A DNA stretch of 64,000 nucleotides from an uncultured Oscillospiraceae bacterium (GTDB lineage: Bacteria; Bacillota; Clostridia; Oscillospirales; Oscillospiraceae): contig CALXDD010000008.1 in the NCBI GenBank assembly GCA_944386985.1, positions 30,347-94,346 of the forward strand, in the 5' to 3' direction. The notes under the pieces are model-generated. The model was not told the DNA's origin and ran no database searches. It saw only the letters and a list, made by a program, of their open reading frames with translations. A program made the translations under genes and the position numbers. This document shows positions 8,051 through 64,000 of the stretch, in pieces (the first letter of the stretch is position 1; every line of letters starts with the position of its first letter).

Positions 8051-8345
8051 AAAACAAAAGCGCCTTTGCCTCACAAAGAGACAAAGGCGCTCTATCAGCC
8101 TCTGCGGTACCACTCTTTTTGCCGGGAAAAAGCAATCTTCCCGGCCGCTCAAGCCTGTGCGGTAACGGGCACACCCGGCGGCGTCTACTAAGGGGGAATC
8201 ATCCACCCTGTTGGGGCCGCTGCTCCAAGGGGATCTTCCCCGGCGCTCCCTCTCCGCCCTTCCACCAATACGGGCGGCTCTCTGTGGAGGTCCTTCCAGG
8301 TACTCTTCCTTTTCCACGCAGTTTTCCATGATAACGTTATTTATA
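8051..8345 (-). ncRNA. T-box leader, probably isoleucine-specific, separated from ileS
   Basis: The minus strand carries the T-box sequence AGAGTGGTACCGC (8104-8116) within an antiterminator region, followed by a terminator stem (AGCGCCTTTG arms, 8059-8091) and a T-rich run. Upstream is a Stem I candidate ending GGGAAGATCCCCTTGGAGC. The codon-like ATC at 8232-8234 fits isoleucine, though GAT is not excluded. T-boxes bind uncharged tRNA and let transcription proceed into a synthetase or amino-acid gene. Here the next downstream sequence is the antisense of a small gene, then XRE, R1 and finally ileS 1.35 kb away. Confidence 0.88.
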
Positions 8346-8460: not shown

Positions 8461-9222
8461 ATGCAGGAAATGGAAAAACAGTTTCACATCCGCTGCGCGC
8501 CCGGAGACGTGGGGCGCTACTGCATCCTGCCCGGAGATCCGGGCCGCTGCGCCGCCATCGCCGCCCTCTTCGACGACGCCCGGCTCATCTCCCAGAACCG
8601 GGAGTTTACCGTCTACACCGGCAGCCTTTTAGGGGAGAAGGTCACCGTCTGCTCCACCGGCATCGGCGGCCCCTCCGCCGCTATCGCCATGGAGGAGCTT
8701 ACCGCCATCGGCGCGGACACCTTCGTCCGGGTGGGCACCTGCGGCGGCATCGACTTGGACGTCCGGTCCGGGGACATCGTGGTGGCCACCGGGGCCGTCC
8801 GCCAGGAGGGCACCAGCCGGGAGTACGCCCCCATCGAGTTTCCGGCGGTGGCGGATCTGGCCGTGGCCAACGCCCTGGTGGACGCCGCCCGCAGCCTGGG
8901 CAAGACCGTCCACGCCGGGGTGGTCCAGGCCAAGGACAGCTTCTACGGCCAGCACTCCCCCGGCAGGATGCCGGTGAGCTTCGAGCTTCAAAACAAGTGG
9001 GAGGCCTGGAAGCGGCTGGGGGTGAAGGCCAGTGAGATGGAGAGCGCCGCCCTGTTCGTGGTGGCGGCGGCGCTGCGGGTCCGCTGCGGTGCCTGCTTCC
9101 ATGTGATCTGGAACCAGGAGCGGGAGGCCGCGGGCCTGGACCAGGACATGAGCGAGGACACCAGCGCAGCGGTACGGGTAGGCGTGGAGGCTCTGAAGCT
9201 GCTGATTGAGCGGGACCAGTAA
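8461..9222 (+). CDS. udp: Uridine phosphorylase
   Basis: 253 residues of the nucleoside phosphorylase type I family. Visible are the phosphate loop [46 protein letters not shown] and the ribose-binding [12 protein letters not shown]. It splits uridine with phosphate to uracil and ribose-1-P. The ATG has GAGGTG six bases upstream. The last ~22 codons are duplicated 150 bases downstream around a palindromic element. The present C-terminus reads IERDQ-stop, whereas the distal copy reads IERDRG-stop and may be the original end. Confidence 0.92.
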
Positions 9223-9440
9223 CGTCCTGCGTGTCCTCGCTCATGCCGCCGGTAATCCGGCGTACAAGCATTTTCCCCGCAGGGGAAAATCTTGGCGCAG
9301 GGCGGATTCACTCCGCCCGAGCATGTAAAATTACAGGGCTCCCAGCGCGGCAAGCCGCGCTGGGATGCGAGGACACGTCGGCAGCGGTACGGGTAGGCGT
9401 GGAGGCCCTGAAGCTGCTGATTGAGCGGGACCGGGGATAA
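9147..9440 (+). repeat. Gene-end-duplicating palindromic element E1 (udp)
   Basis: Copy 1 of the udp 3' end (9152-9217) and copy 2 (9367-9432) match at 61 of 66 bases. Between them, just after the stop, 9231-9245 is a perfect inverted copy of 9147-9161. Next come hairpin CGCCGG-TAAT-CCGGCG, a TTTTCCCC/GGGGAAAA hairpin (9271-9288), a GGCGGA/TCCGCC hairpin (9301-9318), GAGCATGT, and a final 11-bp hairpin (9341-9364) abutting copy 2. The distal copy ends with its own in-frame stop at 9440. Confidence 0.88.
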
Positions 9441-15413: not shown

Positions 15414-15843
15414 CCTCCTTCTTCACAATCAGCTTCACACCTTCCACACGCTGTACGGAGATCAGGGCATCCTTTTCAATGGGGGCGCCGTCCGTACTGC
15501 GGGCGCTCCAGGTCTTCCCGTCGATATAGACGGTGCCGGTGCCGGCGATGTTGTCGATGGTCTCGGTCACCCGGGCGGTCTGCCCGATGAGGCGGCCCAC
15601 ATTGGTGGGCACCTTGCGGCTGTCCACATACCGGCGCACCAAGGGGCGGGCAGCGGCCAGGACCGCCGCGGATACCGCCAGGAACAGCACCACCTGCAGC
15701 CAGACAGATCCCCCCAGCAGGGCGGCCGCCATGGCCACAAGGGCACCGGCGGCAAACCAGATGGAGGTCAGCGCCGCTGTGGCTGCCTCCACGATGCCGA
15801 ACAACAGCAGCAGCGCCAGCCAGACATAGGCGGCTATGGGCAT
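15388..15843 (-). CDS. NfeD-like membrane protein
   Basis: 151 residues with an N-terminal hydrophobic region of three to four helices ([40 protein letters not shown]) and a C-terminal OB-fold ([20 protein letters not shown]... [15 protein letters not shown]), the NfeD domain. NfeD partners the SPFH protein encoded next, probably stabilising it in the membrane. The first gene of the pair; ribosome site GGAGG precedes the ATG. Confidence 0.93.
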
Positions 15844-15972
15844 GTCAGGGCCTCCTTTCCACGGCGCGGCGCGCCGTACCTTAATAGGGTATTTCTATTA
15901 TACCATGGCGGGTTTCATACCGCAAGGACTACCTGTTCCGGGAGGATTTCCATTTTCTTCGAAGGTTTTCTA

Positions 15973-16002
15973 TTGTCTCCCCCTTGCGCTGTGTGCTATA
16001 CT
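15973..16002 (+). promoter_or_regulatory. pgi promoter
   Basis: TTGTCT (15973-15978), 18 bases, TATACT (15997-16002), 46 bases upstream of the ATG. Confidence 0.6.
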
Positions 16003-16048
16003 ACAACAAGATCATCCAAACTTTTCATTTCGAGAGGAGATACGAGAA

Positions 16049-17371
16049 ATGATTTCTGTTGATTACAGTAAAGCTGCCGGCAAGGTATCCGACTTTGTCC
16101 CCAGCCTCCAGCAGGCCCACACCTGGCTTCAGGAGGCCACCGGCCGGGGCAACGATTTTGTGGGCTGGGTGAACCTGCCCCGGGATTATGACAAGGCGGA
16201 GTTCGCCCGCATCCAGGCCGCCGCCAGGAAGATCCAGAGCGACAGCAAGGCCCTGGTGGTCATCGGCATCGGCGGCTCCTATCTGGGGGCCAAGGGCGCC
16301 ATCGACTTCCTCTGCTCCCCCAACTACAATCTGAAGAAAAAGAACACCCCCAACATCTACTTTGTGGGCTGCGGCCTCTCCGCAGACTATCTGCAGGAGG
16401 TCATGGACCTCATCGGGGACGACGACTTCTCCGTCAACGTGATCTCCAAGTCCGGCACCACCACCGAGCCCGCCGTGGCCTTCCGGTTCTTCCGGGCGGC
16501 CCTGGAGAAGAAGTACGGCAAGGCCGAGGCGGCAAAGCGGATCTACGCCACCACCGACAAGGCCCGGGGCGCTCTGAAGAGTCTGGCCGACGCCGAGGGC
16601 TATGACACCTATGTGGTGCCCGACGACGTGGGCGGCCGCTACAGCGTGCTCACCGCCGTGGGCCTTCTGCCCATCGCTGTGGCCGGTGTGGACATCGCCC
16701 AGCTGATGGCCGGCGCGGCGGAGATGATGGAGACCTGCCGCAAGGCGGACCTTTCCGAAAATCCCGCCTGGCAGTATGCCGCCGCCCGCAACGAGCTGTA
16801 TCAGAGCGGCAAGAAGATCGAGATTCTGGCCGCCTACGAGCCCGCCTTCCGGTTTATGACCGAGTGGTGGAAGCAGCTCTACGGCGAGAGCGAGGGCAAG
16901 GAGAACAAGGGTATTTTCCCCGCCAGCGTGGAGTTCACCGCGGACCTCCACTCCATGGGCCAGTACATCCAGCAGGGCGAGCGGCACATCTTTGAAACGG
17001 TGGTCCGCTTTGGTCCCTCCGCCGCCGATCTGAAGGTGCCCTACGACGAGTCCGACGGGGACGGCCTCAACTTCCTGGCGGGCAAGGATATGGACTACAT
17101 CGCCACCCAGGCCATGGACGGCACCCTGCTGGCCCATGTGGAGGGCGGCGTGCCCAACATGATCGTGAAGGTGGGGGAGAAGAACGCCTACACCCTGGGT
17201 GAGATCATCTACTTCTTTGAGTATGCCTGCGGTCTCAGCGGCTATCTGCTGGGTGTGAACCCCTTCGACCAGCCCGGCGTGGAGGCCTATAAGAAGAACA
17301 TGTTTGCCCTCCTGGGCAAGCCCGGCTATGAGGAGAAGGGCGCGGAGCTCCGGGCCAAGCTGGGCCGGTAA
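16049..17371 (+). CDS. pgi: Glucose-6-phosphate isomerase
   Basis: 440 residues, the short bacterial PGI type. Motifs: [50 protein letters not shown] (the PGI family signature region) and the C-terminal helix [13 protein letters not shown]. It converts glucose-6-P to fructose-6-P. The start at [12 protein letters not shown] follows GAGAGGAGA; the upstream in-frame extension is not coding. The last 18 codons including the stop are duplicated 211 bases downstream around a palindromic element, with one mismatch in 55 bases. Confidence 0.96.
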
Positions 17372-17583
17372 GCTGCAGAATTTCCCCCTTTGCAGGAGGG
17401 CTTGCCCAGCACCGCCGCTTGCGGCGGTACGAGCGTTTTGCTGCGCAAAACCTCGGCGTAAGGCGGAATTCATTTCCGCCGCGCATGTCCAATCAAAGGG
17501 GTCCCCGCGGAGCCTGCTCCGTGGGGAAAAGCCCGGCTACGAGGAGAAGGGCGCGGAGCTCCGGGCCAAGCTGGGCCGGTAAG
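17312..17583 (+). repeat. Gene-end-duplicating palindromic element E2 (pgi)
   Basis: Copy 1 of the pgi end (17318-17372) and copy 2 (17529-17583) agree at 54 of 55 bases including TAAG. After the first stop, 17398-17409 is a perfect inverted copy of 17312-17323. Then hairpin ACCGCC-GCTTGC-GGCGGT (17411-17428), TTTTGC/GCAAAA hairpin, GGCGGA/TCCGCC hairpin (17463-17480), GCGCATGT, and a last hairpin (17502-17527) touching copy 2. The order of parts is the same as in E1. Confidence 0.9.
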
Positions 17584-17614: not shown

Positions 17615-17652
17615 AGAGGGACAGGCCGGATGGCCTGTCCCTCTGCTGTTTT
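17615..17652 (+). terminator. Terminator beyond the pgi element
   Basis: A 13-bp stem (17615-17627 with 17632-17644, AGAGGGACAGGCC arms), then GCTGTTTT. Confidence 0.8.
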
Positions 17653-63535: not shown

Positions 63536-63562
63536 GGGATTCTGTGGGATTTTAATGTGCTC

Positions 63563-63793
63563 GCTGGAATTCATTTCCGCCGAGCATTTCAAATTTTTAC
63601 GGAATTCAAAAAGAGGGGCATCCATTTGGATGTCCTCCGGCGGCGTAAGCCGCTGCGCCGCGAGTGCGGCGTCACGAGTGTTTTGGGCCGCGGGTCCAAA
63701 ACCTCGGCGCAGGCGGAATTCATTTCCGCCGAGCATTTTAATGTCTCACGGAATCCAAAAAAGAAGGACATCCTTTTGGATGTCCTTCTTTTT
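63563..63793. repeat. Gene-end-duplicating element E3 (core between direct repeats)
   Basis: Direct repeats of about 72 bases (63566-63638 and 63715-63790), each holding GGAATTCATTTCCGCC, GAGCATTT, ACGGAAT-C and a GGCATCC/GGATGTCC hairpin, flank a core with CGCCGCGAGTGCGGCG, TTTTGG/CCAAAA and CTCGGCGCAGGCGGAATTC. The core is the same family as in E1 and E2. The hairpin is the terminator of the tRNA-like sequence on the minus strand. Confidence 0.8.
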
Positions 63794-63824
63794 TGGAGCG
63801 GGCGACGAGGCTCGAACTCGCCAC
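63794..63824 (-). pseudogene. tRNA 3'-end fragment
   Basis: The minus strand reads GGCGAGTTCGAGCCTCGTC then GCCCGCTCCA: a T-arm, acceptor 3' strand and CCA, followed by a T-rich terminator hairpin (63757-63790). No matching 5' acceptor, D-arm or anticodon arm lies upstream, so it is only the 3' part of a tRNA gene. Confidence 0.75.
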
Positions 63825-64000
63825 CGGCATCCCACGAATGGCCTCCCGGCCATTCGCAGGAGCCCTGCCGGACCTCAGATTTGACGTGCCTTCGGCACAG
63901 GTGGAGGCAGCGAGTTCGTCCTTCTACAGACAAAAAGAGGACACCCAAGCTTGGATGTCCTCTTAAAAATGGAGCGGGCGACGGGGCCCGACCTCGCTAC
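63825..64000 (-). repeat. Gene-end-duplicating element E4 (tRNA-like 3' end)
   Basis: Read on the minus strand from 64000: a tRNA 3' end (GTAGCGAGGTCGGGCCCCGT, then GCCCGCTCCA), a terminator hairpin (63934-63964), an inverted copy of the tRNA segment (63904-63921), a GTGCC/GGCAC hairpin, a middle part, hairpin CGAATGGCC-GGGA-GGCCATTCG (63835-63856), then the second tRNA 3' end (63794-63824) with its terminator. The parts come in the same order as in E1 and E2. The parent tRNA gene may continue past the window end; the T-loop of the distal copy is degenerate. Confidence 0.7.

Follow-up and report, generated by a model that had tools for sequence, protein, structure and literature searches.

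The short, hairpin-rich inserts that occur at the ends of many essential genes in a group of gut bacteria, the Oscillospiraceae, suggest an undescribed kind of element, one that would use base pairing to mark its position while its host gene stays unbroken. In our preferred reading, to which we give a probability of about 0.4, this is a non-coding hairpin element of the Oscillospiraceae, probably active as single-stranded DNA, whose gene-specific internal guide sets a single exact junction. Among the top literature matches, which cover subscription papers and bioRxiv thinly and so leave novelty unproven, we found no earlier description of such an element.

The window, a 64,000-nt stretch of the 2.99-Mb source genome (G000, a draft in 83 contigs), carries the clearest example at pgi, whose ORF occupies 15836–17371; all coordinates of this unit refer to the + strand. 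The end of the gene is present twice, at 17318–17372 and 17529–17583, as a direct repeat of 55 nt with 54/55 identical positions, the length and match count that the initial annotation had given. The first copy (U) has its stop codon at 17369–17371, and the second copy (D) has its own. Between 17317 and 17318, the duplication has its left edge, which falls in the middle of the target junction within pgi (x/s1, 17312–17323); of this junction segment, 6 nt precede the repeat and 6 nt lie inside it. This segment pairs at 12/12 positions with its reverse complement at 17398–17409, the “arm” or putative internal guide, which is also seen in the profile over loci. The annotation was thus right about a perfect inverted pair of 12 bases, but not in taking it for a copy of the first 12 bases of the repeated segment, since the repeat starts at 17318 and not at 17312. 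A linker (17373–17397), which lacks similarity to the flank of D, connects U to the arm.

The predicted hairpin series is present between the two gene ends. It consists of HP2 (ACCGCCGC/GCGGCGGT, 17411–17428; recognized by folding and as covariation helix 1, with 81.9% of cells paired), HP3 (CGAG-C-GTTTTGC/GCAAAAC-CTCG, 17430–17455; helix 2, 99.1% paired, double changes in 9/11 pairs), and HP4 (GGCGGAATTCATTTCCGCC, 17462–17480; helix 3, 99.3% paired, double changes in 6/7 pairs). These are followed by a conserved GCGCATGTCCAATCA stretch defined by the alignment of cores (GCGCATGTCCAATCAAAGGGGT, 17481–17502) and by the closing hairpin HP5 (CCCCGCGGAG-CCTG-CTCCGTGGGG, 17503–17526), which carries the frequent G·T pair of the family. 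A terminator-like inverted repeat (17615–17644) lies beyond D. Allowing three mismatches, GGCGGAATTCATTTCCGCC has five matches at three places in the window (both strands), compared with 0.07 expected. Folded alone as DNA, the pgi strand forms the arm stem and the hairpin series (z = −4.65). As RNA, the unit also folds better than shuffled sequences (z = −4.83), with the arm pairing with another stretch in the RNA minimum.

The same design recurs, as had been claimed, at a second target in the window (9152–9432, + strand), with U at 9152–9217, the arm at approximately 9231–9245, the core at 9244–9326, and D at 9367–9432. This unit, probably the one that the initial annotation called E1, lies at the end of a uridine phosphorylase-like gene, a name taken from its same-site partner L105. 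Intergenic copies of a subtype that we call B are found on the + strand near a tRNA gene and terminator-like hairpins, as a partial match at 63563–63581 and a full core at 63654–63738. By eye, the region 63540–63990 consists of intergenic cores stacked with terminator-like hairpins and includes an opposite-strand stretch resembling the 3′ portion of a tRNA. Elsewhere in the window, a T-box leader occupies 8074–8325 on the − strand (Rfam RF00230, 112 bits).

A covariance model of the core was built from six cores of the source genome. Searches with this model detected the core in 11/11 genomes of the genus, with 8 to 34 copies each, and in at least one copy in 46 of 200 genomes and 33 of 106 genera of the family. 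The exact core pattern occurs in nine stretches of named records, which belong to Flavonifractor sp. An10, Oscillibacter valericigenes An890, Candidatus Pelethomonas, and uncultured Oscillospiraceae. Plasmid and phage collections contained one record each matching the pgi unit, both partial. No known RNA family was identified for the unit, the pgi-unit region giving no Rfam match at the gathering threshold and other hits being sub-threshold and unrelated. Scanning 84 loci and the window gave 107 matches at 106 places (the core at window position 9244 is also locus L047 and was matched twice), and the 106 cores were used in what follows. In their alignment, whose pairing figures lean towards the covariance model because the alignment was fitted to it, 94.4% of the cells are paired, compared with 76.4% in shuffles, and double changes occur in 22 of 25 pairs. 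The 1824 cells of HP3 and HP4 hold 1789 Watson–Crick, 20 G·T, and six A·C pairs. G·T is frequent in HP5: of the 53 closing hairpins, 30 have it, and in 44 the base on the 3′ side is T. The excess of G·T over A·C in HP5 as a whole (49 versus 4) indicates that the + strand is probably the folded one, and the scarcity of G·T in HP3, HP4, and the arms suggests DNA rather than RNA. The initial annotation had also proposed that closing hairpins match their local targets; across 54 loci, the longest word shared with the own target (5.74 on average) is no longer than that shared with other targets (5.80), and copying of the closing hairpin from the target was rejected.

A regular duplication, starting 30 to 55 nt after the core and with its left edge within 150 nt, accompanies 56 of the 106 cores. 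The 50 others comprise 15 with another duplication, several of which are second units of tandem arrays, and 35 with none; 20 of the 106 cores are of the intergenic subtype B. At most loci the unit is about 205 to 225 nt long, and the duplication varies between about 40 and 110 nt. The right end of the unit (..TGGGG) is nearly constant, D beginning 35 to 51 nt after the core, and the 5′ part is variable, with a left end that by eye differs between loci. Subtype B copies (L049, L051, L057, L064, L071, and others) have a terminator-like hairpin in place of HP5 and appear to be a separate branch. A third subtype, in G001 and G010 (ten loci among L077–L107), often has GGAATCYAAAGGGGGGAC and then a terminator-like hairpin after the closing hairpin; these ten loci gave no regular unit, and the two genomes contribute nothing to the 56. 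At L008 (1–200), the infB unit is succeeded by one more copy of the gene end, preceded by a different short hairpin (GGGGTACGGTTTCC...GCGGT) and lacking the core hairpins. The unit seems to break assemblies, as some copies lie at contig ends. In one IMG/VR contig (L182, 8200–8367), a terminal core runs into low-complexity G/C, which is possibly an assembly artefact.

Complementarity between arm and gene was scored for 53 loci, which represent 30 distinct sites; L050 and L052 had been excluded because they are intergenic, and a single further locus (L108+) because of a short flank. The arm is 10 to 17 nt long; its complement is the uninterrupted gene sequence spanning the left edge of the duplication, and the pairing is centred on that edge. 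Scores of at least 12 were obtained for 32/53 loci and for none of 2682 cross-site controls, and scores of at least 10 for 42/53 loci and 29/2682 controls. This bears out the initial proposal of a core that is the element's own and an arm that matches the local gene, and the sharing of one core by 30 sites rules out, as also proposed, a chance tandem duplication. In stems scoring at least 8, each of positions −4 to +5 is Watson–Crick paired in 83 to 98% of loci (mean 92%), pairing falling to about half of the loci at −6 and +9, and the cells of these stems comprise 628 Watson–Crick pairs, 12 G·T pairs, and 14 mismatches. Five of the 53 loci score below 8 (L059, L070, L094, L046, and L093, the release-factor locus). 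The junctions share no strong target motif, merely a weak preference for G at −2 and at 0/+1. For the 46 loci scoring at least 9, the arm starts at a median of 78.5 nt downstream of the junction; counting one locus per site, it starts within 70 to 90 nt at 18 of 26 sites. Outside the genus, 22 places were read (27 hits), yielding nine loci with a duplication, of which seven have arms scoring at least 8, the exceptions being L169 (score 6) and L153 (score 3); in five of the nine, the arm starts at 76 to 81 nt.

The arm also follows the gene when the gene changes. In 20 of 21 same-site comparisons, representing about ten distinct positions and counting only those inside both chosen stems, the arm matches, in both species, a gene base at which the two differ. 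As read by eye, arm and gene of aspS in G005 share a change (CAGAAACAG) that is absent from G000, from G009, and from the gene of the C18 copy in G007. By eye, the C147 copy of aspS in G007 has the CAGAAACAG change in the gene and not in the arm, which counts against arm–gene matching, and L150, a G007 aspS copy that has lost D, has an arm with two mismatches to the gene. In G007, aspS ends that differ from each other are found on two contigs (L145 and L150), both with cores, reflecting either a strain mixture or two gene copies. When the arm was tested for better pairing with one gene end or the other, the outcome was nearly even (U, 8; D, 5; tie, 11); this is a fairer count than an earlier one, in which the arm matched U in 10/10 cases, biased by stem choice.

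Target genes were named for 20 proteins, several of which are fragments below the NCBIfam cut-off. The best NCBIfam hits include release factor 2, IF-2, AspRS, AlaRS, LepA, MnmG, MutS2, an OmpR-type response regulator, UvrB, RNase HI, SecA, EF-G, SigG, TruB, uridine phosphorylase, NrdD, ArgG, RuvX, and Era. All 54 regular units that were placed span a gene edge, with the left edge of the duplication within the gene and the unit pointing outward; none lies inside a gene. Fifty are at gene ends, and four are antisense at gene starts (lepA in G000 and G006, truB, and rnhA). The lepA genes of G000 and G006 have units at both ends (L041, 1334–3382, and L108), antisense at the start and sense at the end. 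In rnhA of G003 (L087, 619–1277), cores are likewise present at both ends, and by eye the copies of the gene start differ only synonymously, with an identical non-coding part.

Both gene ends appear to be kept as coding sequence. D is in frame with its own stop at 50/50 gene-end loci, as is U. U and D differ by 115 synonymous and 22 nonsynonymous changes, with a neutral nonsynonymous fraction of 0.74 (p ≈ 5e-8, even if half of the changes are assumed to lie on an unconstrained D), and their peptides differ at 17 loci, yet both copies reach a stop. These counts used, where possible, a frame that brings both copies to a stop, and a wrong frame was thereby taken for L004, L075, L095, L104, and L117; correction gives 139 synonymous and 27 nonsynonymous changes and 21 loci with differing peptides, and both copies still end in a stop. 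The raw totals of a separate count, 120 synonymous and 40 nonsynonymous changes, take in wrong-frame and antisense loci.

Each unit thus begins at a single exact position within a conserved gene, close to the gene edge, and supplies the rest of the gene first (U, with its stop), then the arm, the core hairpins, and the closing hairpin, with D after it. In the mechanism that we propose, the gene would work with the unit because U completes it, and without the unit D would do so. The strand would fold as single-stranded DNA, in which the arm may serve as an internal guide or splint, bringing the body and the end of the gene together at a single exact junction, and this pairing would fix where the unit is joined or precisely removed. 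An arm at a near-constant place, its covariation with the gene, and a D that is intact would all be expected if an internal guide directed precise joining or removal; moreover, the target of the arm, the uninterrupted gene across the edge, is what would be regained if the unit were removed. Template switching, gene conversion, or a new insertion could renew arm, U, and D from the local gene, the core staying at its site meanwhile. More tentatively still, we suggest a new class of elements: a structured strand, probably single-stranded DNA, with a guide of 10 to 17 nt for one exact junction in one host gene and a spare end of that gene, which would enter and leave essential genes precisely and harmlessly, taking guide and spare end afresh from each new host allele. 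If the arm guides joining or removal, then a small, protein-free element is placed by base pairing with essential genes left intact, using a natural guide that is different for each gene.

The main rival explains much, and we consider it only somewhat less likely than the guide reading, although on balance rather unlikely. It holds that the units are old inserts without present function, which entered once with a target duplication of 75 to 110 nt; gene conversion or slippage would keep U and D the same, and template switching at stalled hairpins would keep arm and hairpins perfect. Plain gene conversion fits the observation that, over 36 pairs, U and D are 0.935 identical within a genome, as opposed to 0.836 (U–U) and 0.825 (D–D) between genomes. 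The identity usually ends at the stop codon, as old inserts would also lead one to expect: at 16 non-tandem loci with coding identity of at least 0.97, the non-coding stretch past the stop averages only 0.38, so that near-identity of U and D does not show recency, contrary to what the near-perfect pgi duplicate had been taken to imply. Two of these 16 loci are 1.00 identical past the stop, and there the arm recurs after D. The non-coding part is also alike at L007 (29/29), L004 (0.92), and L163, and tandem or remnant loci are alike past the stop (L120, L087+, and L114+, 1.00). A fresh 78-nt target duplication at every near-identical locus is not supported because the non-coding part is usually unrelated, and so the likeness of U and D seems to be renewed or selected, usually with no simple fresh duplication. 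At least eight loci carry units in tandem (L002, L043, L058, L075, L078, L086, L114, and L120), which is consistent with old inserts, as are stems that are nearly all Watson–Crick with G-C/C-G flips. Template switching is a published maker and keeper of such stems (PMC8794818), and alone could hold them perfect. Against old inserts stands D, which holds frame and stop throughout, including the 17 loci where the peptides differ. The near-constant start of the arm at about 78 nt also implies a loop longer than those of usual quasipalindromes, and the centring of the arm on the duplication edge is not explained by this rival itself. Even if replication errors alone maintain the units, they constitute a genome-wide natural experiment on template switching and concerted evolution in bacteria.

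The history of individual sites can be followed between genomes. Between genomes, cores that share a site are more alike (identity 0.742) than are cores from different sites within one genome (0.597), a difference reached in 0/2000 permutations. Empty-site alleles, which the reading in the initial annotation requires, were recognized by eye. Among the nine genomes in which pgi was found, the whole unit is present in G000, G004, G007, and G009, and the site is empty in G001, G003, and G006; remnants are seen in G002, which has lost D, and in G008, which retains U and the arm, the core being gone. At aspS, the unit is present in G000, G005, G007, and G009, the site is empty in G004 and G001, and in G006 it is interrupted by a contig end. 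In aspS of G005, the ending of U resembles that of U in G007 and G009, and the ending of D is different.

An intron-like RNA element would account for several of the same features but seems improbable. The unit would be spliced from the transcript, the arm acting as an internal guide that joins the gene to D, and U would be a fallback end. The arm is indeed complementary to the exact spliced product, D is coding, the core covaries as a structure, and the G·T excess in HP5 points to a folded + strand. However, the four units antisense to lepA, rnhA, and truB at gene starts cannot be spliced from the host mRNA, and the placed units all span a gene edge, with none inside a gene. In addition, G·U is rare in core and arms, Rfam gave no intron match, and the unit is small. 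For the guide reading, the rarity of G·T together with the antisense units favours single-stranded DNA over RNA.

Slightly less probable again is a retro-element, or a non-autonomous guest of a reverse transcriptase, that would insert by target-primed synthesis with a fixed 3′ end, a variable 5′ end, a long duplication, and a snap-back arm. The constant 3′ end and variable 5′ part of the unit agree with this, as does L163, a locus of a different genus in which U and D are alike through the stop and the terminator as far as the arm; this locus may be a fresh duplication. The initial annotation had suggested looking for a protein that tracks with the core, and the domain searches do not bear this out. 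RVT_1 was detected in only 3 of the 11 genus genomes, all of which carry the core and are drafts of 76 to 96% completeness, and it is absent from G191, a core carrier in a single contig. Y1_Tnp was likewise found in 3/11 of these incomplete drafts, with stops inside three of its five matches. In 14 core-bearing genomes chosen from the 46 of the family, RVT_1 occurs in 11 and Y1_Tnp in 8. Neither a reverse transcriptase nor a Y1 transposase was retained as a universal partner because their presence does not track the core, and these two domain searches revealed no dedicated enzyme for the unit. Very improbable is a miniature DNA transposon of a DDE family that, like IS1549/IS1634, makes long target duplications: duplications of the observed length would fit, but only the right end is constant, there is no terminal inverted repeat pair, and a target-complementary arm is not predicted.

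Several known systems resemble the unit in part. Quasipalindrome template switching (PMC8794818) also creates and corrects inverted copies, but it is a mutation process and not an element, and neither the core nor the constant geometry follows from it. Papers on the IS1549/IS1634 family mention direct repeats of variable length, and the unit shares such long, variable repeats with this type; it differs in lacking terminal inverted repeats and in having a target-derived arm and core hairpins. MITEs are defined by terminal inverted repeats at both ends, which the unit lacks, and by a duplication of short, fixed length, whereas that of the unit is long and variable. We know of no gene-end duplication or target-complementary arm in REP/REPIN elements. 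Otherwise these elements and their Y1-type RAYT partner (PMC3116915) offer a parallel, the unit being likewise short, non-coding, hairpin-based, persistent, and present in many copies; unlike them, its carriers do not universally have Y1_Tnp, as far as the incomplete drafts tell.

Group I introns offer a parallel for the arm. These introns contain an internal guide sequence (P1/P10) that is complementary to both sides of the junction, and the unit has an internal stretch with the same property. By the criteria for group I and group II introns, the unit has the junction-complementary guide and no match to a known catalytic RNA family; it further differs from group I introns in carrying a gene end, in its antisense insertions, and in its rare G·U pairs. 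For the gene end, the parallel lies with phages and genomic islands that integrate at the 3′ ends of genes and replace them. Like these, the unit carries a copy that completes the gene, but at about 210 nt it is too short for an integrase gene, and it has its own arm for each gene.
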